Shown in pieces: positions 787 through 52,550 of a DNA stretch of 64,000 nucleotides. Made by a program: the position numbers and the translations under genes. Source of the DNA: Pseudomonadota bacterium (GTDB lineage: Bacteria; Desulfobacterota; Desulfobulbia; Desulfobulbales; JAHJIY01); the NCBI GenBank assembly GCA_018823175.1, contig JAHJIY010000027.1, positions 62,001 through 126,000 of the forward strand, read 5' to 3'. Below the pieces are notes generated by a model. It saw only the letters and a program-made list of their open reading frames with translations. It was not told where the DNA came from and did no database searches. Numbering within the stretch: the first letter of the stretch is position 1; every line of letters begins with the position of its first letter.

Positions 787-882
787 TATTAAAATTTCAG
801 GCTGGTGTTGAATATTGTGTCAATGATTTACTGCACCGTTTTGAATAATAAAATTAATCATAAATAAAGGATAATTGAACCG

Positions 883-3465: not shown

Positions 3466-3539
3466 TATAAATTGAGGTGCGGGTAGCACAGCGTCAAATT
3501 GCTTCCAAAGAACAAGCACTTAATTAGAGGAGTTATGCA

Positions 3540-5744: not shown

Positions 5745-5844
5745 AAGGAAGTGTCCTTGGGTGACCTTGGAAAATAACAGAAACATCTGATTTACATATA
5801 AATTTTTATCAATTTTGTTGTCTATATAGTGGAGGAACAGACAG

Positions 5845-7203: not shown

Positions 7204-7233
7204 GCATTTTCAAAAAGTCGTAAAGATATTTTG

Positions 7234-7276
7234 CGCGGTTATTATCCGGAATAAATTGTTTCGTATAATAACCGCG
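7234..7276 (+). terminator. Perfect 12-bp inverted repeat between acsC and fdhA
   Basis: CGCGGTTATTAT (7234-7245) and ATAATAACCGCG (7265-7276) pair perfectly around a 19-nt loop. No T-run follows, so it may act as an RNA stabiliser or attenuator between the Acs and Fdh/Hdr parts of the cluster and not as a full terminator. Confidence 0.5.
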
Positions 7277-7361
7277 ATGAAACTGTCCCTGCCGTAAATG
7301 CTTGGATTTAAGCGGAAAAGAGTCCAGCTTTAATTAAATCAGAAGACCAGAAATACATTTT

Positions 7362-10300: not shown

Positions 10301-11477
10301 CGGGATGGGGATCACCCATTATGTGACCGGCACTGACCGGGTAAAGAGTATTGCCAACCTTGCCATGCTCTGTGGCAAAGTAGGGGTTGAGGGTGGCGGC
10401 TGCAATCCACTGCGCGGCCAAAACAACGTGCAGGGTGCCTGTGACATGGGTGCTTTGTTTAATACTTTGCCTGGCTATGGCGGACTTGAAAACGACGAGT
10501 TGTTCGACCGCTACGAGAAGGTCTGGAAAATCAGACTTCCCAGGCGGCCGGGAAAACCGGCCACCGAGGTCTGGGAAAATGTCTTAAAAGGAGAGATCCG
10601 AGGGGTTTATGTCTTTGGCGAGGATCCGGCGGTGGCGGACCCCAATATCGCCCATGTCCACAAAGCGCTTGAAAAACTCGATTTTCTGGTCGTGCAGGAC
10701 TTGTTTCTCACCGATACTGCAAAAGCGGCCGATGTCGTTTTGCCAGCTGCCTGTTTTGCCGAAAAAGACGGAACTTTTACTAATACGGAAAGACGGGTTC
10801 AAAGAATTCGGAAAGCGGTAAATCCTCCGGGAGACGCAAAGCCTGACTGGGAAATCTTTCGTGATCTATCCAAAAAGATGGGCTACGACATGAATTACAA
10901 TTCGGCGGAAGATGTTTTTGAGGAAATCAGAAGTCTGCTTCCTCAATACGCCGGGATTACCTACGAAAGACTCGAAAAAGTTGGTCTGCAATGGCCGGTT
11001 CCAACCATTGATCATCCGGGAACGGCGGTATTACATACCGAAAAATTCACGCGCGGCAAAGGGCTTTTCATCCCGGAAGATTATATTCCACCGGTCGAAC
11101 TCCCGAACGACGAGTATCCGATGGCTTTTACCACCGGACGCGACCTGGCCCGTTATAACTTCAGCAGCATGACCGGCAAGACCCCGGAGATTGACGTAAT
11201 CAGTCCGGAATGTTTCGCCGAAGTCAACCCGATTGACGCCAAACGGTTAGGAATCACCGAAAAATGCTGGGTTCGCTTGACCTCAAAACGCGGCTCAGTT
11301 GAAATGCGGGCTACTATCACCGACCGTTCGCAGGAAGGAACAATTTTTTCAACATATAACCACCTGGAAGCATTAGTTAACTTTTTGACTCTGGATGCTC
11401 TGGACCGACTGTCCAGGTCACCGGAATACAAACTTTGTGCGATAAAGGTAGAAGTACTGGACGAAAAGGCCGCCTAG
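7362..11477 (+). CDS. fdhA: Selenocysteine-containing formate dehydrogenase alpha subunit with fused GltD-like FAD/NAD(P)H and ferredoxin domains
   Basis: I read this as one 1371-residue protein through the in-frame TGA at 9834-9836, giving Sec825 in the context CARL-U-HAPTV, the known FdhA active-site motif. Domain order: 2Fe-2S ferredoxin (C33, C44, C47, C61); His/Cys cluster site (H81, C88, C97) and a GltD-type Cys-rich N-lobe (C101, C105 and CPRFCETRC); FAD-binding GGGPSG near 195; NAD(P)H-binding GGNN near 326; two Fe4S4 ferredoxin motifs near 623 and 663; Fe4S4 CPYCGAGC near 698; and the molybdo/tungstopterin domain to the end. It should reduce CO2 to formate, or oxidise formate, as the first step of the methyl branch. 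The built-in diaphorase and the following hdrA and mvhD suggest electron exchange with NAD(P)H and a bifurcating Hdr module. Confidence 0.93.
9834..9869 (+). promoter_or_regulatory. Predicted bacterial SECIS element of fdhA
   Basis: The TGA codon at 9834-9836 is followed by a hairpin whose upper stem is GGCC (9851-9854) with GGCC (9860-9863) around loop AGTTT, and whose lower stem is GGT (9848-9850) with ACC (9867-9869). A hairpin with a small G/U-containing loop directly 3' of UGA is what bacterial SelB recognises. The bases just after the TGA also resemble the opening of the Escherichia coli fdhF element. Confidence 0.7.
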
Positions 11478-11541
11478 TTTTAAACCGGCGGTTGATTTGA
11501 TATTTATTAACAAACCAAACTAAAACCTCTTGGAGTCTAAT

Positions 11542-14500
11542 ATGGGACAAAAAGATAAAAAAACAGGGGCCGTCATGGTCGTCGGTGGCGGAGTCGCCGG
11601 CATTCAGGCCGCTCTTGATCTCACCGATTTAGGCTATTACGTCTATCTGGTTGAGAAATCAGCTGCGGTTGGTGGGGCCATGGCCCAGCTCGACAAGACG
11701 TTCCCCACCAATGATTGCTCTCTCTGAATCCTGGCACCTAAGCTGGTAGAGGCCGGTCGGTCTCCAAATATAGAGATACTTTGCAATGCTGATTTACTAT
11801 CAATCAAAGGTAAACCCGGGCAATTCACCGCCCAGCTCAACATGCGGCCCCGGTATATTGATCCGGACAAATGTACCGCCTGTGGCTTATGTAAAACCTA
11901 TTGCCCCAAGCATCTGGTTGATTCATATAATGAAGGTCTGGACCTTACCCGTCCGATCCATATCGACTATCCGCAGGCAGTACCGGCCACCTATTATATT
12001 GATCCGGACTCCTGCCTGCATCTGACCCATGACACCTGTCAGATCTGTGTGCCGACCTGCCGCAGCAATGCGATTGATTTCACCCAGAAGGCCAAGAAAA
12101 AAACGCTGGAAATCGGTGCAATCATCATGTCTCCAGGCTTTGGCCGGGTGCCCGATGAGGCAATGACCAAATACAGCTACGGCAAGCATCCGGACGTTAT
12201 GACCAGTATGGAATTTGAACGGCTCCTTTGTGCCTCCGGTCCTTTCCAGGGTGAGGTCAAATGTCTTTCAGACCGCCGTCATCCTAAAAAACTGGCCTTT
12301 ATTCAATGCGTCGGTTCCAGAGATCTGGGCTGCAACAACGGCTATTGTTCCTCGGTCTGCTGTATGTACGCAATCAAGGAAGCATTGGTGGCCAAGGAAC
12401 ATGATCCCGAGTGCGAAATCACCATATATTATATTGATATGCGGACCCAGGGCAAAGATTTTGACGCGGCCCGAATCAAGGCTGAAAAGATGGGGATCAA
12501 GTTTGTTCGGGCCCGGGTGGCGGATGTAATGCCCTGGAACAATAAGCTCAAGCTTACCTACTCAACCATGGACGGCACCCATTCTTTTGAGCCGTTTGAC
12601 ATGGTTATCCTCTCGGTCGGACTTGATTCGCCGGCCAGTGCCAAAGATCTCAGCAAAATCGGCGGTTTCGAGCTTAATCATTACGATTTTTGCCGGACCA
12701 CCACTTTTGAGCCACTGGTGACCAGTGCTCCCGGCATCTTTGTGGCCGGGGCCTTTCAGGGACCAAAAGATATCCCGGAAAGCGTTACTCAGTCTTCGGC
12801 TGCCGCCGGGATTGCCTCTGCGCTGATCAAAAAGCAACGGGGAAAAGGGGTAGTAATCAAGGAATATCCGTCCGAAGCAGGTCTGGGGGCGGATGAAGAA
12901 CCAAGAATCGGTGTTTTTGTTTGTCATTGCGGGATCAATATCAGCGGTGTGGTCGATGTCCCCGGAGTTGACCAATATGTTGATGGCATGGAAGGAGTGG
13001 TCTACCACGCGGAAAGTCTCTACAGTTGCTCTCAGGATGCCCAGGAAATTCTTAAGGAAAAGATTAAAGAACACAACCTGAACCGGGTAGTGATCGCAGC
13101 CTGTTCGCCCAGAACCCATGAACCACTCTTTCAGGAGACCCTGAAAGATGCCGGTCTTAATCGTTGTCTTATTGAGATGGTCAATATCCGCGATCAATGT
13201 TCCTGGGTCCATGCCAATGAACCGGACAAAGCGACCAATAAGTCAAAAGACCTGATTCGAATGGGGATTGCCAAGGCAAGACATATTAAACCGCTGCCGG
13301 AACAAACTGTACCAGTAACCCCCAAGGCCATTGTGATTGGCGGTGGAGTTGCGGGCATGACGGCTGCTCTTAATATCGCGGAACAGGGTTTTCACTGCTC
13401 ATTGATTGAAAAGTCAGACCAGCTGGGCGGCCATCTCCTGGAACAACGTTCCACTTTGCGCGGAGAAAGTACCACCGATTATCTTAAGAAGCTGATCGGT
13501 CAGGTAAAAGGAAACAAACTGATCGATCTTTTCCTGACCAGCGAACTATTGGCAACCGACGGGTTTGTCGGAAATTTTTCATCCGTCATTAAGGTGAACA
13601 AGGGAAAAGGTAGAAAACCTGTTGAACAGACCATCGATCACGGGGTGATAATCATTGCCACCGGAGGTAAAGAGCATCACCCCCAACAGGTGCTCGGCAA
13701 AAAACTTCCCAAATCAGACAAGATTATCACTCAGCAGGAGTTGGAAGTCAAACTTGATGGCAAGGGTAAAACCAGAGCGCCCAAATCAATAGTCATGATT
13801 CAATGCGCCGGTTCCCGAGGCGACGACCTGGCCTACTGTAGCAAGACCTGTTGTAACCAGGCAGTCAAAAACGCTCTCAAAATCAAGGAGATAAATCAGG
13901 CATCTCAAGTAATTGTTCTCTATCGTGATCTACGGACCTATGGTTTTGCTGAGGATGCCTACCGGGAAGCAAGAGAAAAAGGGGTTATTTTTATTCCATA
14001 CAGCATGGATGAAAAACCTGTTATATCGGCCAAAGGAACCAAAGTTGAAGTTTCATTTGCTGATCCGATCCTGCAGGAAAAAGTCACTTTTTCTCCCGAG
14101 ATGATCGCCCTTAGTGTGGGCATGGTGCCCAATGATACGGAAACCTTAAGTAAGCTGTTGAAGATTCCGGTCAACGAGAATCATTTTTTCTTGGAAGCAC
14201 ATGTTAAACTGCGGCCAGTTGAAATGCCGGTTTCCGGCGTATTTATCTGCGGTCTGGCCCATTCACCAAAACCGGTTGACGAGATCATTGTTCAGGCCCA
14301 GGCCGCAGCGGCCAAGGCGGCCATGCCGCTGGTCAAAGGCAAAGTTTCCGTTGATCCGATTGTTTCCAATGTTAACGAAGATCAATGTATCGGTTGCGGC
14401 CTTTGTGCGAGCCTCTGTCCATACAAGGCGATTGAAATAATTAAAGTAGACAAGACAAGAAAAGCCCGGACCGTTGTTGCAGCCTGTAAAGCCTGTGGAA

Positions 14501-14604
14501 TCTGCGCTTCGCACTGTCCAACTCTGGCTATCACCATGGGCGGTTTTACTAATGAACAAATTTACGCCCAGATCACAGCTTTTGGCGAATCTGAGGAGGG
14601 GTAA
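11542..14604 (+). CDS. hdrA: Selenocysteine-containing heterodisulfide reductase subunit A-like protein with two flavin modules (HdrA)
   Basis: This is 1020 residues when the in-frame TGA at 11725-11727 is read as Sec62 (NDCSL-U-ILAPKLVE; HdrA proteins have Cys or Sec here). ATG 11542 is chosen because TTGGAG lies 6 bases upstream. Features in order: FAD-binding GGGVAG (about 15-20), the DCSL-U cluster-binding site, ferredoxin motifs CTACGLCKTYC (about 111) and a second Cys-rich site, VCHCG, a second FAD module with GGGVAG near 600, and two C-terminal Fe4S4 motifs (CIGCGLC near 949, CKACGIC). HdrA is the flavin-based bifurcating unit that splits electron pairs between ferredoxin and a higher-potential acceptor. 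Its neighbours fdhA and mvhD point to a formate- or NAD(P)H-linked Hdr complex. HdrB and HdrC are not in the window. Confidence 0.92.
11725..11755 (+). promoter_or_regulatory. Predicted SECIS element of hdrA
   Basis: After the TGA at 11725-11727 a weak hairpin can form: CCTGGC with GCCGG as the lower part and ACC with GGT as the upper part around TAAGCT. It is less regular than the mvhD element, so the structure is only suggestive. The Sec call rests mainly on the conserved protein context on both sides of the codon. Confidence 0.5.
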
Positions 14605-21478: not shown

Positions 21479-21516
21479 TAACCTCCTTGGACATTAATGG
21501 ACAAAAGGTGACAAGA

Positions 21517-22236
21517 GTGGACAAAATTTTCATCGGAGTCAAGGAGATGGCCGCCAACATGGGCATTTCTGAGAAGACGATTTATCGAATGCTTAACGAC
21601 AACCAGTTGCCGTTCGCGGTCAAGATTGGCGGCCAGTGGCGCTTTCGAATTGATGCGGTCGACGGTTGGCTGGCGGCTCGGGTCGGTGGCGAGGCAAGTG
21701 TTGGCGCCATCAACCCGGCGGTAACCGTAAGTGCGTCTCTAGCCAGCGGCGCAGTGCTCTACCGGATTCATGGCGAAAACCGGGATGAAACCATCGACGA
21801 ACTACTCTCCACGCTACCCCAGACCGGTAGTCTGGATTTTACCGGTTTCAAGCTCCTGGTGCTGGCTCGCGAGGCACTGGCATCCTCGTCGCTCTGCGGC
21901 GTGGCTTGCATGATGCCGGGCCAGGATCAGCCCATTTATCCCGAAAAATCATTGATTATCCTGGCCTTTCTTGAAACACCCACGGATTTCAAGGCCCTGG
22001 ACGGACAACGGACCGAGGTGGTTTTTCTGCTTCTGGCCGCTAATCCTCTGGAGCAAAGCATTCTTGATACCCGGCTGCGCCGCCTTCTGATGGAACCGGA
22101 ATTCGTGGCCGCTTTACTGCTTCAGCCACCCCGGCGCGAAGTGTTGCAGCTGGTGCAAGAGACCGAGACACGCCTGCTGCCACCTCGCCTGCGATCCGAA
22201 CGCAAGAAAATCCAAACCGCAACAGCTGTCGGTTGA
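21517..22236 (+). CDS. Transcriptional regulator: excisionase-type HTH plus degenerate PTS-IIA-like domain
   Basis: With GTG 21517 (AAAGG about 8 bases upstream) the protein has 239 residues; TTG 21487 would add 10. The first 60 residues are a MerR/excisionase-type winged helix (MAANMGISEKTIYRMLNDNQLPF). The C-terminal 150 residues follow the PtsN/fructose-IIA pattern (LETPTDFKALDGQ, VVFLLLA, then the helical end). The phospho-accepting histidine segment, normally IPHG-like, reads ACMMPGQ, so PTS phosphorylation is unlikely. It lies 25 bases before the first Ehr gene and is the likely local regulator or sensor for that operon (inference). Confidence 0.8.
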   Translation: MDKIFIGVKEMAANMGISEKTIYRMLNDNQLPFAVKIGGQWRFRIDAVDGWLAARVGGEASVGAINPAVTVSASLASGAVLYRIHGENRDETIDELLSTLPQTGSLDFTGFKLLVLAREALASSSLCGVACMMPGQDQPIYPEKSLIILAFLETPTDFKALDGQRTEVVFLLLAANPLEQSILDTRLRRLLMEPEFVAALLLQPPRREVLQLVQETETRLLPPRLRSERKKIQTATAVG

Positions 22237-22261
22237 AACCAGTGGACCTGTTATAACCACC

Positions 22262-24277
22262 ATGCTGAATCTTTCTCCGCAAATTCTCTACCAGGGCGCC
22301 ATCACAATCTTACTGATCGGGGCAATTCTTCCCCTGACGATTGAATTGACTCACCGTCATTCCACCAGCCTGGCCAATGGCCTGGGCGCCGGCGCGGCCC
22401 TGCTCGGCAGCGGGTTAGGTTTGGCCGGTGCTCTTTTACTCCTCTTTGGTCAGTCCTCTGTCGCCTGGCAGATGAGCTGGGCCTCGGCCGGGGTCAATCT
22501 CTGCCTGCGGTTCGACCCTCTGGCCGCATTTTTCCTGGCCCCGGTCTTTCTCCTGACCGGCAGCGGGGCGCTTTTTGCGACCGGCATCCTGGCGTCATCA
22601 AAGCAGCCGGGAAAATCCGGTCGGCACTGGCTCTATTACAATCTTCTGGCGGTCAGCATGGCGCTGGTGGTAGTTGCCGCCGACAGCCTCCTCTTCCTGT
22701 TCGCCTGGGAAGGGATGTCACTTTTCTCCTTTTTTATGGTGATCTACGATCAGGATGAAGAATCGACCCGGCGGGTTGGCTGGATCTATCTGGTCGCCAC
22801 CCATCTGAGCGCCGCCTTTCTGTTCCTGCTATTTTTTCTGATCTATCGCCAAACCGGTTCCACCGAATTTAGTTCCTTCGCAACCCTTAAGGCGTTGCCG
22901 ACTTCTACCGCCGTGCTCTTTTTCTGTTTGGCCTTGATCGGTTTTGGTTCCAAGGCCGGCCTTTTTCCAATGCACAGCTGGCTACCGGAGGCCCATGCCG
23001 CCGCCCCCAGTCATGTTCTGGCCTTGATGGGCGGGGTGATGCTCAAATTACCGGTCTATGCCTTTCTCCGTTTTCTCATCTGCTTGCCGGTACTGCCGGC
23101 CTGGTGCGGACTTCTGGTGACTGGTCTGGGACTGGCCGGGGCGCTGATTTGTATCGCCCTGGCCGCGCTGCAAGGCGATCTGAAACGCTCATTAGCCTAT
23201 TCCTCCGGCGAGAACGTCGGCCTGATTTTTTTCGGTCTGGGGCTTTGGCTTTACTGCCGGGAAGGCCGATTTGACGTCCCGGCCACCCTGTTTCTGGTCG
23301 GGGCGCTCCTGCATGTCTGGAATCACGCCTTTTTTAAGTCTCTGCTTTTTTTCGGGGCCGGCGCCATAATCCATGCCACCGGGGCCAGAGAACTCTCCCG
23401 GATGGGCGGTCTTCTGCGCCGCATGCCGCGTACCGGGCTGTTATTGATAATCGGCGGCGGCGCCATTGCCGCCTTACCGCCCTTAAATGGTCTGATCAGC
23501 GAATGGTTGCTCTATCTTGGCCTTTTCCAGGCGGGGCAGACAAGTATTGGTGGGCAAGCCTTTATTTTCATGCTGTTGCTCGTTTTGCTGGTCATCGTCG
23601 GCACCCTGGTTTTGCTGGCGATGAGCCGAATTCTTGGCATTGCCTTAAGCGGCGAGCCCCGAAGTTTCGAAGCTCGGGAGGCCCATGAGGTCGGTCCGGC
23701 AATGTTCATCGCCATGGCCGTTTCCGCCGGCCTCTGCCTGACGGTGGGGATCGCCCCGGGCTTGGTCTTCCCGCTGATTCTCGGTCCTTTGGCCCTACTT
23801 TCTCCGGAACTTGCGACCGGCGCCCCGGAGATTCTGGCCACGCTACCCTTCGGAGCGGGCTGGAGCTGGACATGCCTGCTCGTTCTCTTATTTCTGGCAG
23901 TCTACGTCTGGTTCTATTATCGTCTTCCTCCAGGCGACAGTCGAAGGCGCAACACCTGGATCGGCGGATTACTACCGTCACCCAGAATGTCATACACGGC
24001 CGGAGGATATGGTCAACTAGCCCAGGAGAATCTATTGTGCAGCTGCCTGCGTCCTCCGATCATCTCAGTTCGTACACCAGTGTTCTTTCCCGGCCACTGG
24101 CAGTGGCGATGCAGGAACATTGACCCAATCATGGCCCTGATCCTTATGCCGCTCTTCAGTCAATTCAGCTCGATGGCCGGTTCCTGGCGGCGGTTGCAGG
24201 GAGGGCAGATGAACATTTACCTGGCCTATTTTTTTCTGACCACCATCCTGCTTCTTGGCTGGGCTTTTTCTTCCTGA
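22262..24277 (+). CDS. hyfB: Proton-conducting NuoL/HyfB-like membrane subunit 1 of the Ehr complex
   Basis: This 671-residue polytopic protein (about 14-16 membrane segments) belongs to the NuoL/MrpA antiporter-like family. Signatures are FAWEGMSLFSFFMV, GFGSKAGLFPMHSWLPEAHAAAPSHV, DLKRSLAYSSGENVG and LPPLNGLISEWLLY. It should form an ion-translocating channel in the membrane arm. The C-terminal cytoplasmic part is divergent: the usual WGCGY motif reads WIGGL, although SPRMSYTA is kept. It is the first gene after the regulator, and the next gene starts 18 bases downstream. Confidence 0.9.
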   Translation: MLNLSPQILYQGAITILLIGAILPLTIELTHRHSTSLANGLGAGAALLGSGLGLAGALLLLFGQSSVAWQMSWASAGVNLCLRFDPLAAFFLAPVFLLTGSGALFATGILASSKQPGKSGRHWLYYNLLAVSMALVVVAADSLLFLFAWEGMSLFSFFMVIYDQDEESTRRVGWIYLVATHLSAAFLFLLFFLIYRQTGSTEFSSFATLKALPTSTAVLFFCLALIGFGSKAGLFPMHSWLPEAHAAAPSHVLALMGGVMLKLPVYAFLRFLICLPVLPAWCGLLVTGLGLAGALICIALAALQGDLKRSLAYSSGENVGLIFFGLGLWLYCREGRFDVPATLFLVGALLHVWNHAFFKSLLFFGAGAIIHATGARELSRMGGLLRRMPRTGLLLIIGGGAIAALPPLNGLISEWLLYLGLFQAGQTSIGGQAFIFMLLLVLLVIVGTLVLLAMSRILGIALSGEPRSFEAREAHEVGPAMFIAMAVSAGLCLTVGIAPGLVFPLILGPLALLSPELATGAPEILATLPFGAGWSWTCLLVLLFLAVYVWFYYRLPPGDSRRRNTWIGGLLPSPRMSYTAGGYGQLAQENLLCSCLRPPIISVRTPVFFPGHWQWRCRNIDPIMALILMPLFSQFSSMAGSWRRLQGGQMNIYLAYFFLTTILLLGWAFSS

Positions 24278-24295
24278 GCGACCGAGGTAAATGAA

Positions 24296-25204
24296 ATGAT
24301 CTTTTCCATATTTTTTCACTTGCTCATTCTCTTTGGTCTGGCGCCGCTTCTGGCCGGCATCATTGCCCGGGTTAAAGCCAAAATCGGCGGTCGGCAAGGA
24401 CAACCGCTGCTCCAGCTCTACTGGGATCTGGGCAAGCTCTTCCGTAAAAGAATGGTCATAAGCACCACCACCACCTGGGTCTTTCGGGCCGGACCGCTGG
24501 TCGGCTTTGTTGTCCCGGTAATGATCTCTCTACTGGTGCCTTTCGGGCCGGTCGCGGCACCGATCTCCTTTTCCGGCGACCTGGTCCTCTTCGCCTACCT
24601 CCTGGCCCTGGCCAGATTTTTTACGGTGCTGGCCGCCCTTGATACCGGTTCCAGCTTCGAGGGCATGGGCGCGGCCCGGGAGGCAACCTTCGCGATCTTA
24701 ATCGAACCGACTATCTTTGTGGTTTTCATCGTTCTGGCCCGTTTGGCCGGTGATTTTTCCTTAAACGGCATGTTCGTGCCGGTCAAGGCCGGTTTTAATA
24801 CCCCGGCCGGGATCGCCACGACCTTGGCGATCATCTGTCTGTTTATTGTAATGCTGGCGGAAAATTGTCGAATCCCCTTTGACGACCCCAACACCCATTT
24901 GGAACTGACCATGATCCACGAGGTCATGGTCCTCGACCACAGTGGTCCTGATCTGGCGCTGATTCTTTACGGCGCCGCCATGAAGTTGATGATTTCCGCG
25001 ATCCTGATCGCCGATCTGCTTAGGCCGGTCACCGCTGATCCGCTTCTGGGCAGCCTGTCCTTCCTGGTCGTTTTAATAATACTCGCCATAATGGTGGGAC
25101 TGGTAGAATCGGCCATGGCCCGCCTCCGGTTGATTCGTATCCCGCAGCTGCTGGTCGGGACGACCCTGCTTTCCTTTTTCGCGCTGATCATGCTGCTTAG
25201 GTGA
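24296..25204 (+). CDS. hyfC: NuoH/HyfC-like membrane subunit of the Ehr complex
   Basis: This 302-residue, about 8-segment protein of the NuoH/HycD/HyfC family anchors the peripheral redox arm to the membrane arm. Family motifs are GIIARVKAKIGGRQGQP, QLYWDLGKLFRK, GSSFEGMGAAREATFAI, NCRIPFDDPNTHLELTMIHE and GLVESAMARLRL. It follows the HyfB-like gene closely and precedes the HyfE-like gene by 4 bases. Confidence 0.93.
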   Translation: MIFSIFFHLLILFGLAPLLAGIIARVKAKIGGRQGQPLLQLYWDLGKLFRKRMVISTTTTWVFRAGPLVGFVVPVMISLLVPFGPVAAPISFSGDLVLFAYLLALARFFTVLAALDTGSSFEGMGAAREATFAILIEPTIFVVFIVLARLAGDFSLNGMFVPVKAGFNTPAGIATTLAIICLFIVMLAENCRIPFDDPNTHLELTMIHEVMVLDHSGPDLALILYGAAMKLMISAILIADLLRPVTADPLLGSLSFLVVLIILAIMVGLVESAMARLRLIRIPQLLVGTTLLSFFALIMLLR

Positions 25205-25208
25205 ATAG

Positions 25209-25847
25209 ATGAACGATCCGGCTACCACCATACTTTTTACCGTAATTCTGCTGAATTTTTTTCTCCTCGGTACCAGCCGACTAGGGGCCTGCATTCGGGT
25301 CGTGGCCGCCCAGGGCGCGCTTATCTCCCTGCTGCCGCCCCTGGTTCATGGGGTTGGTGTTCACACCATGGTCCTGGCAACCGGTGCCCTGACCCTCAAG
25401 GGTTTGGTGATTCCCTGGCTGCTCTTTCGGGCCATCCGCCAGGTCAGGATCAGGCGCGAGATGGAACCGCGTATCGGCTATATCGCCACCTTGATGCTGG
25501 GGGCCTTGACTACGGCCGGCGCCTTTATCTTCGCCGATCGACTGCCGCTGTTGTCCGAGCATCATCATACCATGTTCATTCCGGCCTCTTTGGCGACTCT
25601 GGCCGTGGGCTTTCTTTTGTTGATCACCAGGCGTAAGGCCATCACCCAGGTTCTGGGCTATCTGGTCTTTGAAAACGGTATCTTCATCTTCGGCATCCTG
25701 CTGGCCGAGGCGATGCCGCTTATGGTCGAGGCCGGTGTCCTTCTGGATATGCTGGTCGCCGTCTTTGTTATGGGTATCGTCATGAATCATATTAATCGGG
25801 AATTTTCCTCCATTGACACCGAAAACCTCTGTCTGTTGAAAGAATAA
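25209..25847 (+). CDS. hyfE: HyfE-like membrane subunit of the Ehr complex
   Basis: This 212-residue hydrophobic protein has the pattern of HyfE (NuoK-like plus extra segments): GACIRVVAAQGALISL, LVIPWLLFRAIR, TRRKAITQVLGYLVFENGIFIFGILLAEAMPLMVEAGVLLDML. It probably forms part of the proton path next to the NuoH-like subunit. It lies 3-4 bases from both neighbours, so the genes are cotranscribed. Confidence 0.9.
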   Translation: MNDPATTILFTVILLNFFLLGTSRLGACIRVVAAQGALISLLPPLVHGVGVHTMVLATGALTLKGLVIPWLLFRAIRQVRIRREMEPRIGYIATLMLGALTTAGAFIFADRLPLLSEHHHTMFIPASLATLAVGFLLLITRRKAITQVLGYLVFENGIFIFGILLAEAMPLMVEAGVLLDMLVAVFVMGIVMNHINREFSSIDTENLCLLKE

Positions 25848-25850
25848 ATC

Positions 25851-27305
25851 ATGCTACTGAACATCATCATCATTCTGCCCTTGTTGGCAGCCGCCATCGC
25901 CGCTCTGCTTCCCTCGGAGCGTTGGCGCCCCTGGCTGTTGCCGGCGGCAGCCATCCCACATCTGTTCCTGGTTTGGCGGATTATCACCCAGCCGGCAGCG
26001 CCAACTGACGCGGCGGCGATGCTCGCCCTGGACGCCCTGGGCAGCTTGATCCTGTTGGTGGTCAGTCTGCTGTTTACGATCAGTTCCATCTATGCCCTGG
26101 GCTATTTCAAGACCCATCCAACCTGGTCCAACCGGACCTTTATCGTTTGCTTGCTCCTGTTCCTCGGTGCCATGAGCTTTGCCGCGGCAGCCCGCCACCT
26201 GGGATTACTCTGGGTAGCGGTAGAAGCGACCACCGTGGTCAGCGCCCCGATGATCTATTTCAACCACAACCGTTTTTCCATCGAAGCGACCTGGAAATAT
26301 CTGCTCTTCTGCTCGGTGGGCATCGCCCTGGCCATGCTCGGCATTCTCTTTCTGGCTTATGCCGGGCTGCATAGCGGCGTCGAGCCGATTCTTCAGCTGG
26401 ATTTCCTGCTTCGCGAGGCCCCACATTTCTCCAAACCTTGGCTGCGGGCCGGTTTCGTTTTTCTGTTCGTGGGGTTTGGCACTAAAATGGGATTGGCGCC
26501 GCTCCACACCTGGAAGCCCGATGCCTATGGCGAGGCGCCCGGACTGGTCGGCGGTTTACTGGCCGGTGGTTTAACCTCGGTGGCCTTTCTGGCGGTCCTG
26601 CGGGCGGTGCAGATTGTCAATGCGGCTGGCGAGGCCCAGCTGGCCAGGCAATGTTTGCTGGCACTCGGGGTGTTATCGCTGGTCTTTGCGGCGGTTTTTG
26701 TTATCCGCCAGCGTGATATCAAGCGGATGCTGGCCTATTCCAGCGTCGAGCACATGGGAATCCTGGCCATCGGAGTGGCGGTGGGGGGGCTGGCCACCTA
26801 CGGCGCCATGTTTCATGTCCTGAACAACGCCCTGACCAAGGGCGCTCTGTTCATGAGCGCCGGCAACATCCATCGATATTTCGGCAGTAAAAAAATGTGC
26901 GAGACCCAAGGGGCAATCAGTATCCTGCCCTGGTCGGCCGGCATCTTTCTAGCCGGTTTTCTGGCCGTTGCCGGATCGCCGCCTTTCGGGCCATTTTTAA
27001 GCGAATTCACTATTCTGCGCGGCATCTTCGGGGCCGGACAAACCGGCCTGGGACTTGCCTTCATCTTCCTGCTGACCGTGATCTTCATCGGCATGAGTCA
27101 CACTGTAGTGAACGTCGTTCTGGGGCCGCCCATGGAAGAAACCGAGGAAGAAATCAACGATCGACACGTCTTGAAAGAAGGGGTGTTGACCGTTCTGGGG
27201 CCACTGTTTCTCATGGCTTTAGTGCTGGTTCTGGGGCTCTATGTGCCACCGCCTTTGCGGGACTTGTTTCATCAGGCGGCTGAATTATTGGAGGTGGGCC
27301 GATGA
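25851..27305 (+). CDS. hyfF: HyfF-like proton-conducting (NuoN/NuoM-type) subunit of the Ehr complex
   Basis: This 484-residue member of the NuoM/N-HyfF antiporter-like family contains LWVAVEATTVVSAPMIYFNH, GFGTKMGLAPLHTWKPDAYGEAP, DIKRMLAYSSVEHMGI, FHVLNNALTKGALFMSAGNI and GSPPFGPFLSEF. It is the second of four antiporter-like subunits encoded here. The stop overlaps the start of the large-subunit gene by 4 bases. Confidence 0.92.
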   Translation: MLLNIIIILPLLAAAIAALLPSERWRPWLLPAAAIPHLFLVWRIITQPAAPTDAAAMLALDALGSLILLVVSLLFTISSIYALGYFKTHPTWSNRTFIVCLLLFLGAMSFAAAARHLGLLWVAVEATTVVSAPMIYFNHNRFSIEATWKYLLFCSVGIALAMLGILFLAYAGLHSGVEPILQLDFLLREAPHFSKPWLRAGFVFLFVGFGTKMGLAPLHTWKPDAYGEAPGLVGGLLAGGLTSVAFLAVLRAVQIVNAAGEAQLARQCLLALGVLSLVFAAVFVIRQRDIKRMLAYSSVEHMGILAIGVAVGGLATYGAMFHVLNNALTKGALFMSAGNIHRYFGSKKMCETQGAISILPWSAGIFLAGFLAVAGSPPFGPFLSEFTILRGIFGAGQTGLGLAFIFLLTVIFIGMSHTVVNVVLGPPMEETEEEINDRHVLKEGVLTVLGPLFLMALVLVLGLYVPPPLRDLFHQAAELLEVGR

Positions 27306-28825
27306 GTGCGACCTCGGTCTGCAAAAATGGCGGCATTCTGCCGTTAGCTACCATTCCCCGGCTCACCTCGGCCGAATTTGCGGCTTTAATCAAGACCCGG
27401 TTGACCGAGGGAGCGCGGCTGGCCGCTTGTCTGGCGGTGCCGGAAGGCGACGGTGATGCTTCATTCACTCTTTACGCGGTGCTGGCCGATGATCAGGGCG
27501 GCGATCTCCTGGTGGTCGCCCAAAAGCCGCAACGGCAGTTTGATTCACTGACCCCAACGATCTCCCATGTCCATCTCTTCGAAAGGGAAATCGGCGAACA
27601 ATACGGGGTAAAATTTGCCGGGCATCCCTGGTTCAAACCAGTTCGTTTTCACGCCCCCTGGCCGGGCGGTAGTGACGGCTGGGACCGTGACCCTGAAATC
27701 CACCCTCTGGTCGGCGATATGGACTATTTTACGGTGGAGGGCGAGGAGATTCACGAGGTCGGGGTTGGCCCGGTCCACGCCGGGGTCATCGAACCAGGCC
27801 ATTTCCGTTTCCAGTGCTACGGCGAGCAGGTCCTGCATCTGGAGATTTCACTTGGCTACCAGCATCGGGGCATTGAAAAGATGCTGTTGGGCGGGCCCTG
27901 GCCCCGGACCGCGATGCAGATCGAGACCATGGCCGGCGACACCACCATCGGCCACATGAGCGCTTACAGCATGGTCCTGGAAGGACTGGCCGGCATGGCC
28001 ATCTCGCCTCGGGCCCGGGCCCTGCGCGCCATTGCCCTGGAGTTGGAGCGACTGGCCAATCATGTGGGAGATATCGGTGCCCTGGCCGCAGACATCGGTT
28101 TTCTGCCCACCTCCGCTTATTGCGGCAGACTGCGCGGCGACTATTTGAATTTAAGCGCCCAGCTTTGTGGCAGCCGTTTTGGACGTGGCCTGGTCCGGCC
28201 CGGCGGGGTACTCTTCGATGCCGACAAGGCCCTGTTGACTAAAATGCGCCAGACCCTCGAAGCGGTAGCCCGAAATACCCGCGGCGCCATCGAGCTCTTT
28301 TTTTCAACTCCCTCGGTTCTGGCCCGGCTTGAAGGGACCGGCCGGGTGACGGCCCGGGACGCCTATTATCTCGGCCTGGTCGGAGTGGCCGGCCGGGCCT
28401 GCGGGATTGACGCCGACGTTCGCCGATATCACGGCACCGGAAGCTATCTCCCGGACGAGATTCCGGCCATGATTGAGGAGGGGGGGGATGTCCTGGCCCG
28501 GGCCCAGGTGCGACGGCAAGAGATTGAACATTCGCTGGAGTTCCTCAATCTTCACTTAAGCGAGTTACCGGCCGGCGAACTGCGGCAAGTTCTTCCGCCC
28601 CTGGCACCTGGTTGTCTGGCGGTGGCCATGGTTGAGGGCTGGCGCGGCCCGGTCACCCATGTCGGACTGACCGATGCCGATGGCCGTTTTGTGCGCTACA
28701 AGGCGGTGGATCCTTCTTTTTTCAATTGGAGCGGATTGGCCCTGGCCCTGCGGGATGGACAGATCAGCGACTTCCCTCTCTGTAATAAAAGTTTTAATTT
28801 ATCCTATTGTGGTTTCGACCTCTAG
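27302..28825 (+). CDS. Fused NuoC-NuoD/HyfG-like large subunit lacking NiFe-site cysteines (Ehr type)
   Basis: In 507 residues, the first 150 resemble NuoC (EREIGEQYGVKFAGHPW) and the rest resembles the hydrogenase/NuoD large subunit (GYQHRGIEKML, LELERLANHVGDIGALAADIG). In group 4 hydrogenases the NiFe centre needs an N-terminal CGxC and a C-terminal CxxC. Here the first site reads AGDTTIGH (about 210-217) with no Cys, and the C-terminus has two cysteines 9 apart (C494, C503), not CxxC. A NiFe centre therefore cannot be bound in the usual way. This matches the energy-converting hydrogenase-related (Ehr) family noted in Geobacter. The subunit probably links an electron or quinone-like partner to ion pumping; the true substrate is unknown. 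Confidence 0.9.
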   Translation: MSATSVCKNGGILPLATIPRLTSAEFAALIKTRLTEGARLAACLAVPEGDGDASFTLYAVLADDQGGDLLVVAQKPQRQFDSLTPTISHVHLFEREIGEQYGVKFAGHPWFKPVRFHAPWPGGSDGWDRDPEIHPLVGDMDYFTVEGEEIHEVGVGPVHAGVIEPGHFRFQCYGEQVLHLEISLGYQHRGIEKMLLGGPWPRTAMQIETMAGDTTIGHMSAYSMVLEGLAGMAISPRARALRAIALELERLANHVGDIGALAADIGFLPTSAYCGRLRGDYLNLSAQLCGSRFGRGLVRPGGVLFDADKALLTKMRQTLEAVARNTRGAIELFFSTPSVLARLEGTGRVTARDAYYLGLVGVAGRACGIDADVRRYHGTGSYLPDEIPAMIEEGGDVLARAQVRRQEIEHSLEFLNLHLSELPAGELRQVLPPLAPGCLAVAMVEGWRGPVTHVGLTDADGRFVRYKAVDPSFFNWSGLALALRDGQISDFPLCNKSFNLSYCGFDL

Positions 28826-28841
28826 GAAGTGAACAAAAAAC

Positions 28842-29612
28842 ATGCTACGTATAATTCGTGAACGCTTTCGCCAAGGGTACCGGACGGCCCCATTTCCCAA
28901 GGTTGAGCCGGTATTGCCTGAACGCTTCCGGGGCCTGCCGGTCATTGACCCCAAAAAATGTCCAGCTGGCTGTACAGATTGCGAAGGGAGCTGTCCCTTC
29001 GGAGCAATCACTCGTCCAAACGGTCTACCCAGGATTGATCTGGGACGCTGTCTCTTTTGTGCCGACTGTCCGGCCTGCCCGTACGGGGCGATCACCTTTG
29101 GCAATGATTATCGGCTTGCCACCTGCCAACGGCAGGATTTGTTTTATGATGGCGCCGAGCACCTCCTTGCCCAAAAACTTAAAAAAAAGATGCTCTCGCT
29201 CTTCGGCCGTTCCCTAAAGCTGCGCCAGGTCTCGGCTGGAGGCTGCAATGCCTGTGAAGCGGATGTCAACGTCCTGTCCACCCTGGTCTTTGATCTGGGT
29301 CGCTTCGGCATCCAATTTGTGGCTTCCCCCCGACATGCTGACGGCCTGTTGGTCACCGGACCGGTCACCGAGAACATGCGTTTGGCCCTGCTGACCACCT
29401 ATGAGGCGGTACCGGGACCAAAGATTGTTATTGCCTCCGGGGCATGCGCCATTAGCGGCGGGCCTTTCGTGGACAGCCCAGAGGTTCATAACGGACTGGA
29501 ATCCATTCTGCCGATTGACCTGTATATTCCCGGTTGCCCACCCCATCCCTACACCATTCTGGATGGGCTTTTGCGTTTACTGGACCAACGGAAACAGACG
29601 CAAAAACGATGA
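28842..29612 (+). CDS. Fused NuoI-like ferredoxin and NuoB/HyfI-like subunit of the Ehr complex
   Basis: This 256-residue protein has an N-terminal region with two Fe-S motifs (CPAGCTDCEGSCPFG near 40-55; CLFCADCPACPYG near 68-80, tightly spaced) and a C-terminal NuoB-like domain with the proximal-cluster cysteines in GGCNACE, GACAISGG and PGCPPHP. In most complexes these are two proteins (HyfH and HyfI); fusion has also been seen in Ehr clusters. It should pass electrons from a soluble donor such as ferredoxin to the large-subunit site. A dispersed repeat begins 22 bases after its stop. Confidence 0.9.
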   Translation: MLRIIRERFRQGYRTAPFPKVEPVLPERFRGLPVIDPKKCPAGCTDCEGSCPFGAITRPNGLPRIDLGRCLFCADCPACPYGAITFGNDYRLATCQRQDLFYDGAEHLLAQKLKKKMLSLFGRSLKLRQVSAGGCNACEADVNVLSTLVFDLGRFGIQFVASPRHADGLLVTGPVTENMRLALLTTYEAVPGPKIVIASGACAISGGPFVDSPEVHNGLESILPIDLYIPGCPPHPYTILDGLLRLLDQRKQTQKR

Positions 29613-29634
29613 GATCAAACATGCGGGCCTTGAT

Positions 29635-29769
29635 CATGCAAAGCGAAACGCATTCCCCGCAGCTCGGAGTATCGCAGGCTCCCTTACCTGCTGCGGGGGT
29701 AGTGAGCGAATCTGATGAAAGCAACCTTCTATACGGAGATTCCCCATGGCTTGCCGTGGGGAGCTTCAA
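29635..29769 (+). repeat. Dispersed double-hairpin repeat, copy 1 (135 bp)
   Basis: This copy shares most of its bases with the reverse complement of 52299-52409. It starts CATGCAAAGCGAAACGCATT, contains two GC-rich hairpins (CCCCGCAGC 29655-29663 with GCTGCGGGG 29690-29698; CCCCATGGC 29742-29750 with GCCGTGGGG 29753-29761) separated by AGTGAGCGAATCTGATGAAA, and ends GAGCTTCAA. The first hairpin's loop is 24 bases longer than in copy 2. It resembles REP/BIME elements moved by RAYT (TnpA-REP) transposases; no transposase is in the window. It interrupts the Ehr operon. Confidence 0.8.
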
Positions 29770-29859
29770 TTATTTTTATCGGCGACAGTGAAATTTGACG
29801 ACTTGCTGTCGATCAGGGCAACATAAAAATTTTCACCCCATGGAGGAGAGAAGGGGATC

Positions 29860-31803
29860 ATGACTTTGCTTATCGCCGCCATACTGTTACTCTTGCTCTC
29901 GGGCGGCCTGGCCCTTCCGGGCCGCCGGGTCGGCGGTTTTTTCGCCAGGCTGGCGGTCCTGACCGGACTGGTCGGGGCGGTTCTGGGGTTCATCGCCACC
30001 GCCTTCTGTTTTACCCATTCGTCAACAGCCTTTTTAAGTCTTCCCTGGCCGACGATCGACGGTTTTTTCGTGATAAGACTTGATCCTCTGGCCGCAGTCT
30101 TTCTTTTTCCCCTCTTTTTGATTTCCGGGGCCGGCCAGCTTTACGGTCTGGGCTACCGCCACAGCCGGGCAGTCTGGATCAACTTCTTCTATCCGCTCCT
30201 GACGGCCGGCATGGTTCTGGTAATCATTGCCGGCAATGGTTTGCTCTTTCTGGTCGGCTGGGAAATCATGGCGCTGGCCGGCTACCTGCTGGTAGTCACC
30301 GAGCGGGATGATGAAGAGGCGCAGAAGGCGGGCTTTATCTATCTGGTCGCCACCCACACCGGCACCCTGGCCCTTTTCGGCATGTTCGCCCTGCTGGGCA
30401 GTTCAGCTTGCCTGCTACAATTGCCGGTGGTCGGCAGCCTGCCGGCGGCGGAGGGGACAACGATCTTTCTCCTGGCCCTCTTCGGTTTTGGCTGCAAGGC
30501 CGGTATCATGCCCCTGCACATCTGGCTACCCCGGGCCCATGCCGCAGCCCCCAGCCAGGTCTCGGCCCTGATGAGCGGCGTGATGATTAAAACCGGCATC
30601 TACGGGCTCCTGCGAATCATCTTTATGTTTAAAGATATCCCGGCCTGGTGGGGCTGGCTGCTTCTCGGGCTGGGCTTGATCTCCGGCCTCATGGGTATCA
30701 CCCTGGCCATTGCTCAAACTGACTTGAAACGCCTTCTGGCTTACTCCAGCGTCGAAAATATCGGCATCATCCTGATCGGAATGGGAGGAGGGCTGCTGGG
30801 AGTCACCCACGGGTTTACCGGCCTGGCGCTGCTGGGGCTGGCCGGGGCCCTGTTCCATGTGATCAATCACGGGCTATTCAAGTCCTTGCTGTTTTTAAGT
30901 GGTGGGGCGGTGATCCGAGCCACCCATACCCGTGAAATATCAGCCTACGGCGGATTGTTAAGGCAAATGCCCCTGACCGGCCTGTTCTTCCTGGGCGGGG
31001 CCGTGGCCGTCTGCGGACTGCCGCCCTTAAACGGTTTTGTCAGTGAATGGCTTATTTACCTGGGTCTTTTGCGTGGGGGGCTGCCGACAATCGGGCTGCC
31101 GGGGTTGTTGATCGCGGTAATCGGACTGGCCCTGATCGGCGGTTTGGCGCTGCTTTGTTTCACTAAAGTTTTAGGTCTTAGTTTCTTAGGGGCGCCAAGA
31201 CCGCAAAATCATGAGATAGCCGAGGCGCCGGGATTTATGCTGGCCGCCATGGCCCTGTTGCTGGCCGCCTGTGCCGGAGTCGGCCTGATACCTCAAGGTG
31301 TCTTGCCGCTCCTGTCGGCGGCAGTAGCTCAACTTAATCTGGCCTCGGGGTCCGGCACAGAACTTTCGGCCCTGGCCCCGGCCGGCTTAATCAGTCTCGG
31401 GGCGTTACTCCTTGTTTTGTTGGTGGCCTCGCTAATTGGTCTGAGACGTCTCCGGCCCCAACAGTCCCAGCCTGCCGAAACCTGGGGTTGCGGCTATGCC
31501 TCTTTGCTGCCGAGGGCTCGTTACACCTCTTCGTCTTACGCCGAAATGATTATGCAACTCTGCCGCTGGTCTTTACAAACCAGTCAGATCGGCGGAAAGA
31601 TCACGGGTTTATTCCCGCTCCGGGCCACTTTTGCCAGCCGCACCCCGGACTTCGTGCTGGACCTGCTGATCCTGCCGCTGATTCCACCTCTGGCGGTGAC
31701 GGCCACCATTTTGCGCCGCCAGGTCCAGCGTGGTGTTCTCGGCATCTATCTGCTTTATCTGGCCTTGGTTCTTGGTGGGCTATTAACTTTCGCCCTTTAC
31801 TGA
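29860..31803 (+). CDS. NuoL/HyfB-like proton-conducting subunit 2 of the Ehr cluster
   Basis: This 647-residue polytopic protein of the NuoL family shows FLVGWEIMALAGYLLVVTERDD, GFGCKAGIMPLHIWLPRAHAAAPSQVSALMSGVMIKTGIYG (split here across a long helix), DLKRLLAYSSVENIGI and LPPLNGFVSEWLIYLGLLRGG. The C-terminal part keeps the HyfB motif WGCGY and PRARYTSSSYAEM. GGAGGAGAGA precedes the ATG. It is much closer in sequence to the next gene (32011) than to the first NuoL-like gene, so the pair probably arose by tandem duplication. Confidence 0.9.
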   Translation: MTLLIAAILLLLLSGGLALPGRRVGGFFARLAVLTGLVGAVLGFIATAFCFTHSSTAFLSLPWPTIDGFFVIRLDPLAAVFLFPLFLISGAGQLYGLGYRHSRAVWINFFYPLLTAGMVLVIIAGNGLLFLVGWEIMALAGYLLVVTERDDEEAQKAGFIYLVATHTGTLALFGMFALLGSSACLLQLPVVGSLPAAEGTTIFLLALFGFGCKAGIMPLHIWLPRAHAAAPSQVSALMSGVMIKTGIYGLLRIIFMFKDIPAWWGWLLLGLGLISGLMGITLAIAQTDLKRLLAYSSVENIGIILIGMGGGLLGVTHGFTGLALLGLAGALFHVINHGLFKSLLFLSGGAVIRATHTREISAYGGLLRQMPLTGLFFLGGAVAVCGLPPLNGFVSEWLIYLGLLRGGLPTIGLPGLLIAVIGLALIGGLALLCFTKVLGLSFLGAPRPQNHEIAEAPGFMLAAMALLLAACAGVGLIPQGVLPLLSAAVAQLNLASGSGTELSALAPAGLISLGALLLVLLVASLIGLRRLRPQQSQPAETWGCGYASLLPRARYTSSSYAEMIMQLCRWSLQTSQIGGKITGLFPLRATFASRTPDFVLDLLILPLIPPLAVTATILRRQVQRGVLGIYLLYLALVLGGLLTFALY

Positions 31804-32010
31804 TCTTGAGATGAAAAGTATTGTATCCTCAAATTCCTTTTCATTGAGTAAACTAAAACACCTCAACCTGCTATGGGTAAGGGTGATATCCGGCCAGGGG
31901 GTCCGCCTCATCCTCTATCACTCCGAACAGATTTTATCCGCTCGACAAGCAATTCCATATTTGTCGGCCATCCCGTCTCTGTTAAGTCTTACGGATAGCA
32001 GGAAAGAGCG

Positions 32011-33978
32011 ATGACTATCTTTGTCGCCGCCATTTTTCTGTTACTGCTCTCGGCAATTTTTGCTCCCTTGAGCCGACACGGTTCAGTGTTCTGGGACCGT
32101 CTCTCCCTGTTTTCCGGTTTGGGCGGCACGGTATTGGGCCTTGTGGCCACGATTGTCTGTCTTGTCCGTCCCGAAAACTCAACCTTAAAGCTGGCGTGGC
32201 CGGCGATCAATGGCTTATTCGCCCTGCGGATCGACGGGCTGGCCGGGGTATTTCTGTTACCGGCCTTTATCATTGCCGGGGCCGGTCTATTATACGGCAG
32301 CGGTTATTGGCCCAACTCCGAAAAACCGGCCTCCAGCTCCTGGATTCGCTTTTTTTATCCGATTCTGACCGCCGCCATTACCCTGGTCATTGCCGCCGAC
32401 AACGGCGTGGTCCTTCTGGTTTTCTGGGAGATCATGGCCCTGGCCGGTTATTTTCTGGTAATCACCGAGCGGCAGAAAGAGGAAAATTTCAGGGCCGGAT
32501 ATGTTTACCTCATCGCCACCCACGCCGGGACCTTGGCCCTCTTCGGACTATTTGCCTTACTCGGTGAAAAAAGCTGCCTGGTCAGCCTGCCCGGGGCGGG
32601 CACTTTGGCCGGCGGCAGCGCGACCCTTTTTTTTCTGACCCTGATCGGTTTCGGCTTCAAGGCCGGAATCATGCCGCTTCACATCTGGCTGCCCGGCGCT
32701 CATGCCGCAGCGCCCAGTCATGTCTCGGCCCTGATGAGCGGCGTGATGATCAAGACCGGAATCTACGGCATCCTGCGAGTAATCAGCCTTTTCCATGCCC
32801 CCCCCGCCTGGTGGGGCTGGACGGTGCTCTATCTTGGCATCCTGTCAGGGATCATGGGCGTGGTCTTCGCCATTGCCCAGCATGATATTAAAAAACTGCT
32901 CGCCTATCACAGCATTGAAAACATCGGCATCATTCTAATCGGAATCGGGACCGCGATGCTCGGCAAGAGCCATGGCCTGATGTCGATTGCCTTGCTCGGC
33001 CTGGCCGGTGCGCTTCTGCACGTGGTCAACCATGGGCTTTTCAAGGGACTGCTCTTTCTTTCGGCCGGATCGGTGGTCCAGGCCATGGGGAGCCGGGAGA
33101 TGGCTGGTTACGGCGGCTTGCTGAAAACGATGCCGCTGACCGGGCTTTTTTTTCTGGGTGGGGCGGTGGCGATCTGCGGTCTGCCGCCGCTAAATGGTTT
33201 TATCAGTGAATGGTTTATCTTTCTGGGTCTTCTGCAGGGCGGCATTAATCAGGCCACGGAAATGAATTTTATTATTCTGGCAATTCCGGGGTTGGCGATG
33301 ATCGGCGGCCTGGCGCTCCTCTGTTTCACTAAAGTTTTCGGGCTCTCATTTCTGGGGAGCAGTCGCACTGATCATGCCCCGGGTCGTGAAGCGCCAATTT
33401 CGATGCTGTGCGGGATGGGGCTGCTTCTCGCCTGTTGTTTCTGGATCGGCATCCTGCCCGCTACCACGAGGCCCTTGCTCTCCGGCGCTCTTTTACTATG
33501 GTCCGGTACGGCACTAGAGATAAATCATGTTTATGAGGTCCTGGCGCCCGTTCGTTCGATAACCTTGACGACCATGTTCTTTCTGGCTCTGCTACTGTTG
33601 ATCTCGTTGCTTAGCCGGCAAAATAGGAGTTGGGATAAAAAGGTGTCAACCTGGGGTTGCGGCTATCAAGGCGTGATCCTCCGCGCCCAGTACACAACCT
33701 CGTCATTTGCGGAGATGATTAACTCGTTTTTCAATTGGGCGCTGAAGACCAGGGTGGTCGAAGAGAAAGTTGCGGGCGTTTTCCCGCAAGAGGCGGCCTT
33801 CAAAAGCCGCACCCCTGACGTGGTCCTTGATCTTTTTTTAGTGCCGTCCTACCGCAGATTCGCTGAGCTGGCCACCAAAATAAGACGCAGTGTCCATCAG
33901 GGGATAATCGGCATTTATCTGCTGTATTCCGCCCTCACTCTTTGTCTGTTACTGGCCATCGCGATTTTCCTTCCCTGA
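32011..33978 (+). CDS. NuoL/HyfB-like proton-conducting subunit 3 of the Ehr cluster
   Basis: This 655-residue paralogue of the previous gene has the same order of motifs: VFWEIMALAGYFLVITERQ, FGFKAGIMPLHIWLPGAH, DIKKLLAYHSIENIGI, GLPPLNGFISEWFIFLGLLQGG and the C-terminal WGCGY with AQYTTSSFAEM. One visible difference is YHSIEN in place of YSSVEN in the broken-helix region. AGGAAAGAG lies just before the ATG. The 207 bases between the two paralogues hold no convincing gene or hairpin. It is the last + strand gene before the convergent nhaD. Confidence 0.9.
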   Translation: MTIFVAAIFLLLLSAIFAPLSRHGSVFWDRLSLFSGLGGTVLGLVATIVCLVRPENSTLKLAWPAINGLFALRIDGLAGVFLLPAFIIAGAGLLYGSGYWPNSEKPASSSWIRFFYPILTAAITLVIAADNGVVLLVFWEIMALAGYFLVITERQKEENFRAGYVYLIATHAGTLALFGLFALLGEKSCLVSLPGAGTLAGGSATLFFLTLIGFGFKAGIMPLHIWLPGAHAAAPSHVSALMSGVMIKTGIYGILRVISLFHAPPAWWGWTVLYLGILSGIMGVVFAIAQHDIKKLLAYHSIENIGIILIGIGTAMLGKSHGLMSIALLGLAGALLHVVNHGLFKGLLFLSAGSVVQAMGSREMAGYGGLLKTMPLTGLFFLGGAVAICGLPPLNGFISEWFIFLGLLQGGINQATEMNFIILAIPGLAMIGGLALLCFTKVFGLSFLGSSRTDHAPGREAPISMLCGMGLLLACCFWIGILPATTRPLLSGALLLWSGTALEINHVYEVLAPVRSITLTTMFFLALLLLISLLSRQNRSWDKKVSTWGCGYQGVILRAQYTTSSFAEMINSFFNWALKTRVVEEKVAGVFPQEAAFKSRTPDVVLDLFLVPSYRRFAELATKIRRSVHQGIIGIYLLYSALTLCLLLAIAIFLP

Positions 33979-52213: not shown

Positions 52214-52298
52214 CGTTATCCGGTTCAATTTGAAAAGAGCATTATTTTAGCCGGAATCAGCGAACAAACCCTTTACTGTTAAAGATCAGGAAAAATAA

Positions 52299-52409
52299 TT
52301 GAAGCTCCCCGCGGCAAGCCACGGGGAATCTCCGTATGGAAGGATACTTTCATCAGATTCGCTCACTTACCCCGCAGCAAGCTGCGGGGAATGCGTTTCG
52401 CTTTGCATG
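52299..52409 (-). repeat. Dispersed double-hairpin repeat, copy 2 (111 bp, inverted relative to copy 1)
   Basis: Reverse complement of the element at 29635-29769. Hairpins are CCCCGCGGC (52307-52315) with GCCACGGGG (52318-52326), and CCCCGCAGC (52370-52378) with GCTGCGGGG (52381-52389), each with loop AA. The joining segment and ends (TTGAAGC and TTTGCATG) are conserved. It lies between the enhancer-like palindromes and the sigma-54 promoter. Confidence 0.8.
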
Positions 52410-52550
52410 TTCAATAGTAACCAGCCACATTCAACCACTCATTTGAAAGTTAGCGACCCTACTTCCTTTAAATTTCATCTGCTCGGTAACACCCCGAAAT
52501 AAAAGAGTTTATCAAAAAACATTCGATATTTTTCCCCTTTGACAACGGCC

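Follow-up and report, generated by a model that had tools for sequence, protein, structure and literature searches.

Ehr complexes are widespread across bacteria. The one of Geobacter sulfurreducens is encoded by GSU0739-45, EhrA-1, EhrC, EhrL, and EhrS being the named components, and its proteins reach higher levels on formate than under hydrogen-containing conditions (PMC7894505). Among the related enzymes, FHL has a HycC subunit whose C-terminal extension is ND3-like, with Cys537 pocketed by Phe122 of HycD and His188 of HycE, and which has no Lys in TM7 (PMC9474812). In complex I with extra pump subunits, the lateral helix is reported to be lengthened (PMC9040806).

On gene content and phylogeny, positions 22262-33978 of the window (the whole stretch of DNA analysed, 64,000 nucleotides) encode an Ehr (energy-converting-hydrogenase-related) complex, a member of the complex I superfamily. 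The list of open reading frames of the window gives eight genes in this interval, all on the + strand, and Pfam and NCBIfam assign them to three HyfB/NuoL-like proteins (A1, A2, and A3), NuoH-, HyfE-, and HyfF-like subunits, a large subunit, and an Fe-S subunit. The three genes at 22262-24277, 29860-31803, and 32011-33978 are hydrogenase-4 subunit B-like, scoring 480-521 bits with NF005086, under its 667-bit cut-off; the other matches are to NADHdh, HyfE-like, HyfF-like, Complex1_30kDa plus 49kDa, and Oxidored_q6 plus Fer4. The HyfB-, NuoH-, HyfE-, and HyfF-like membrane subunits and the NuoB/ferredoxin Fe-S subunit thus share one operon, the combination that marks an Ehr locus, and in the trees its proteins fall together with those of Ehr-type loci in named genomes of Geobacter and Geomonas. 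The first-pass annotation had read the locus as an Ehr complex with four antiporter-like subunits (three NuoL-like, one HyfF-like) and no NiFe site, and had proposed a comparison with Geobacter loci; the families found, the subunit types shared with Geobacter, and the residue alignments described below agree with that reading. The features of the locus are the following.

21487..22236, + strand: regulator-like protein with HTH_17 and PTS EIIA-2 domains, phospho-acceptor His missing, directly before A1
22262..24277, + strand: EhrA of N1 type (A1), HyfB/NuoL-like, with TWIGG in place of TWGCG (ND3-loop motif)
24296..25204, + strand: EhrB, NuoH/HycD-like membrane anchor with conserved E-channel acids
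25209..25847, + strand: EhrC, HyfE-like (NuoK-like) membrane subunit
25851..27305, + strand: EhrD, HyfF-like antiporter-like subunit, 484 aa
27302..28825, + strand: EhrL, NuoC+NuoD / HycE-like large subunit lacking the NiFe cysteines
28842..29612, + strand: EhrS, two-cluster ferredoxin domain fused to a NuoB/HycG-like part, with proximal [4Fe-4S] cysteines
29630..29775, + strand: one of the dispersed repeats of about 140 bp that bear a hairpin, between ehrS and A2
29860..31803, + strand: EhrA of N2 type (A2), native trailing NuoL-like subunit
32011..33978, + strand: EhrA of N2 type (A3), additional NuoL-like subunit of separate ancestry

A regulator with HTH and PTS EIIA-like domains adjoins 85 of 150 Ehr loci; its phospho-acceptor His (GIAIPH) is retained in most lineages and missing from the clade of the window's order. 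Beyond the regulator, a carbonic anhydrase gene lies on the opposite strand. Promoter-like sites occur at chance level in the scans, and most terminator-like sites fall within coding regions.

To place the residues of the large subunit, a profile of 17 EhrL-type proteins was aligned with HycE of the solved FHL (7z0s), MbhL, and Nqo4 of complex I. In the alignment to 7z0s, the CGIC motif that carries the first NiFe cysteine pair in HycE corresponds to AGDT in EhrL, and the DPCYSC motif of the second pair to NLSYCG. Among 147 EhrL homologues, position 214 is never Cys (0/147), position 501 is Ser in 146 and Ala in one, and position 504 is Gly in all, which means that none of them has Cys at either position of the second pair or at the later position of the first. 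We take this loss to be a trait of the family rather than a peculiarity of the present locus. The CxxC ... CxxC signature of the large subunit of Group 4 [NiFe] hydrogenases is lacking, and with a NiFe ligand pair in none of the 147 homologues a hydrogenase identity is rejected, as the first-pass annotation had concluded from the absence of both pairs.

The predicted fold of EhrL (pLDDT 92) has HycE as its top structural match. Cys172, His108, His159, Glu164, Gly212, and Asp213 are invariant in the 147 homologues, while Cys494 and Cys503 are almost so. Cys172, located in an FRFQCxGE motif, is not common to the aligned HycE, MbhL, and Nqo4 and is Ehr-specific. Cys172, Cys494, and Cys503 are candidates for a site that may take the place of the NiFe center, Cys172 being a lead. 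The quinone-site residues of complex I, His38 and Tyr87 of Nqo4, align with Ile163 and Gly212 of EhrL; the quinone site is thus not retained, which makes a quinone acceptor doubtful. NuoEFG, the NADH module of complex I, is encoded neither in the Ehr operon nor among the adjacent neighbours that were scanned.

The remaining electron- and ion-transfer parts are well preserved. In EhrS, the proximal-cluster cysteines C135, C138, C202, and C232 are present in 141-142 of 143 homologues; of the two ferredoxin-type Cys sets, C51, C70, C73, and C76 are invariant, and C40, C44, C47, and C79 are kept in 124-135. All tested E-channel acids of the NuoH-like EhrB are invariant or nearly so in the homologue alignment. 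The Fe-S subunit and the membrane anchor are accordingly intact, as had been annotated. A1, A2, and A3 each carry the TM5 Glu, TM7 Lys, Lys290, His333/337 (the two His of an FHxxNH motif), Lys341, and the TM12 Glu, all nearly invariant in about 180 homologues, so that the inspection of channel lysines suggested in the first pass finds them in every NuoL copy. EhrD matches at the TM5, TM7, and TM12 positions and also has the DIK-motif Lys, the second His being replaced by Asn. Every antiporter-like subunit, like the NuoH-like one, hence has charged channel residues, as in complex I-type ion pumps.

We have also considered that A2 and A3, or A3 alone, could form a separate ion transporter rather than Ehr subunits. 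The gaps of 247 bp before A2 and 207 bp before A3 exceed those of the core operon, and the element preceding A2 is a genome-wide hairpin repeat, both of which would suit such an arrangement. However, A2 and A3 both fall within the Ehr NuoL clade, related loci of the order place an N2-type gene after ehrS (mostly within about 150 bp), the gap upstream of A2 consists largely of a single repeat copy, and partner genes of another transporter do not flank the pair. A separate transporter is thus improbable, and the family membership of the two genes together with the position of N2-type NuoL behind ehrS in related loci supports their assignment to the Ehr complex. An inorganic-carbon transporter, considered because of the nearby carbonic anhydrase, was rejected, since no DUF2309 partner was found among the scanned window proteins and A2 and A3 belong to the Ehr family. 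As for the repeat itself, which is about 140 bp long, the window contains copies at 29630-29775 and 52291-52414, and the genome gives 41 matches including the former, the others being 70-97% identical and many of them partial.

The number of NuoL genes was compared with the neighbourhoods of about 130 other Ehr loci, taken from the same order, the same phylum, and named genomes representing many phyla. NuoL sequences split deeply in the tree into two groups, N1, which holds A1, and N2, which holds A2 and A3. Among complete loci, N1-B-C-D-L-S is the most frequent of the orders recorded (44), followed by N1-B-C-D-L-S-N2 (13, the pattern of the window's order), N2-B-C-D-L-S (11), N2-N2-B-C-D-L-S (9), a divergent N2 ahead of N2-B-C-D-L-S (7), and N1-N2-B-C-D-L-S (6); a single NuoL, whether N1 or N2, is a common arrangement. 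Three intact NuoL genes occur in the window only, the other loci carrying one or two, and a search with A2 found no second three-NuoL cluster among 146 genomes of the order. One apparent case (L046) turned out to consist of one intact and one fragmented gene. The three-NuoL Ehr is real and rare, a departure in gene content from a complex that ordinarily has one or two copies. The first-pass annotation had spoken of an extra NuoL pair; an extra copy does exist, but as two NuoL-like genes are usual in the order and A2 is native, the surplus is one gene, A3.

The two trailing genes differ in their ancestry. In the tree of the core subunits (B, D, L, and S), the window joins genome G408 with support of 100/100 and a core identity of 78%, and A2 is likewise sister to the G408 gene (100/100), thus tracking the core. 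A3 instead joins a gene of genome G456 (99/97), the core of which falls in another group. G408 reads A1-B-C-D-L-S-A2 with nothing A3-like after A2, in a genome that is 89% complete and whose Ehr locus is divided between two contigs that join inside A2. A recent tandem duplication within the window's lineage could be imagined, given that A2 and A3 are neighbours of the same orientation and family and are 56% identical. Each of them is closer to a gene of another genome (69% for A2, 66% for A3), and their sisterhood is rejected by the AU test (p 1.3e-5) under the model used, which leaves such a duplication a very small chance indeed, namely that gene conversion or an error of the model has distorted the tree. 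These relationships point to A3 as most likely a lateral acquisition from an Ehr relative in another lineage of the window's order; an old duplication followed by repeated losses could possibly mimic this pattern.

The regulator and Ehr genes (21487-33978) have a higher GC and mostly a higher GC3 than the genes around them and the complex I genes of this genome. GC3 is 0.67-0.71 for most Ehr genes, 0.58 for ehrS, and 0.62 for the regulator, compared to 0.43-0.70 for other window genes and 0.47-0.56 for complex I. Judging by this composition, the complete Ehr cluster may be of foreign origin. The complex I in question (L193, G000:C59:76000-92500) has four antiporter-like genes of 492, 611, 508, and 476 aa, in a 2M-like arrangement that is also present in other genomes of the order.

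Taken as a whole, the locus is best explained as a membrane-bound redox enzyme without H2 chemistry that would deliver ferredoxin-level electrons to the EhrL pocket and move ions, with A3 added laterally, a reading to which we assign a probability of roughly 0.55. The parts for electron entry, the pocket, and the channels can all be recognized from their residues. Electrons of low potential, for which reduced ferredoxin is the likeliest source, would enter the two EhrS clusters and move on to the proximal cluster, opposite what was once the NiFe pocket of EhrL, where an acceptor would be reduced; the change would be relayed via EhrB to the antiporter-like subunits, which would move ions across the membrane. 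We infer the donor from two features, the ferredoxin-type domain in EhrS and the window's Wood-Ljungdahl genes, which are accompanied by a Sec-formate dehydrogenase; the nature of the acceptor, the direction, and the stoichiometry are similarly putative. With A2 as the native trailing NuoL and A3 presumably added behind it, the locus would supply four antiporter-like proteins.

No partner enzyme is encoded in the Ehr operon, a point that speaks against this reading. The Wood-Ljungdahl cluster of the window (13-14604) comprises CODH/ACS subunits, an HdrA-like protein, and the formate dehydrogenase at 7362-11477, whose in-frame TGA at 9834-9836 is read as selenocysteine (ARLUHAPT). This cluster and the formate response of the G. 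sulfurreducens proteins would fit, without proving, a role near formate/CO2 chemistry. A specific link of Ehr to Wood-Ljungdahl carbon fixation was considered and dropped, since acsB is common across the order (116 of 146 genomes) and missing from some Ehr-bearing genomes, so that the association is weak.

The ND3-like tail bears on how the NuoL copies may be arranged. The ND3-loop Cys (TWGCG) is found in all of the 180 Ehr NuoL homologues that were counted in the alignment, and so in both copies where a locus has two; it is kept in A2 and A3 and lost in A1, which reads TWIGG (23951-23970), either as a genuine loss or as a local sequence error. If the sequence is right, the pocket would be filled by A2 or A3, with A1 located elsewhere. 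The putative docking partners, EhrL His159 and EhrB Phe121, are invariant and match the residues that pocket Cys537 in FHL. With one such pocket per complex, the tailed copies would be exchangeable, or just one of them would dock. The three NuoL proteins might therefore be alternative isoforms, one (or two) per complex at once, which the frequency of single-NuoL loci of either type and the short predicted lateral helix of A2 (residues 598-622, about 25 residues) would also favour. That helix model is of low confidence, however (pLDDT about 60-70), and many lineages keep two copies in one operon, as expected for separate positions in one complex; we consider the isoform explanation plausible, though less likely than not. 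It is likewise only tentatively that we suggest a complex that would unite the three NuoL-type antiporter-like subunits with the HyfF-type one, all four working jointly, and whose ion-to-electron ratio lateral gene transfer would have raised. As to the earlier proposal of unusually many ion channels per electron pair, the four subunits have intact channel residues, but each NuoL carries an ND3-like tail and the docking place is single, so that more ions per electron pair are a possibility only, with isoforms as a competing one.

The interest of the variant is moderate and lies in the NuoL series and in the constraint set by the ND3-like tail. Ehr loci with one, two, and three NuoL genes form a natural series in which antiporter-like subunits may have been added like beads or may be exchangeable parts, and the docking Cys, present in all copies examined except A1 of the window, makes these two ideas separable.

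Compared to the known systems, the window shares with the Ehr of Geobacter sulfurreducens and other bacteria the HyfB-, NuoH-, HyfE-, and HyfF-like subunits, the NiFe-less large subunit, and the Fe-S small subunit. It differs from them in having three NuoL genes instead of the usual one or two, in the order N1-B-C-D-L-S-N2-N2, and in an A1 without the ND3-loop Cys. The nearest solved relatives of EhrA, EhrB, and EhrL are found in Hyc/FHL (7z0s) and Hyf/FHL-2, both with a NuoL carrying a fused ND3-like tail; FHL has a NiFe site, a formate dehydrogenase module, and one HycC, whereas the operon of the window lacks the NiFe ligands and FdhF. Antiporter-like subunits have likewise been added to one enzyme in 2M complex I and in the five-pump Complex_I_3 of Manganitrophaceae (PMC9040806). 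Those additions are of the NuoM or MrpD type and come with a longer lateral helix on the end subunit, whereas the extra copies in the window are of the NuoL type, and every one brings a short helix and an ND3-like tail of its own.
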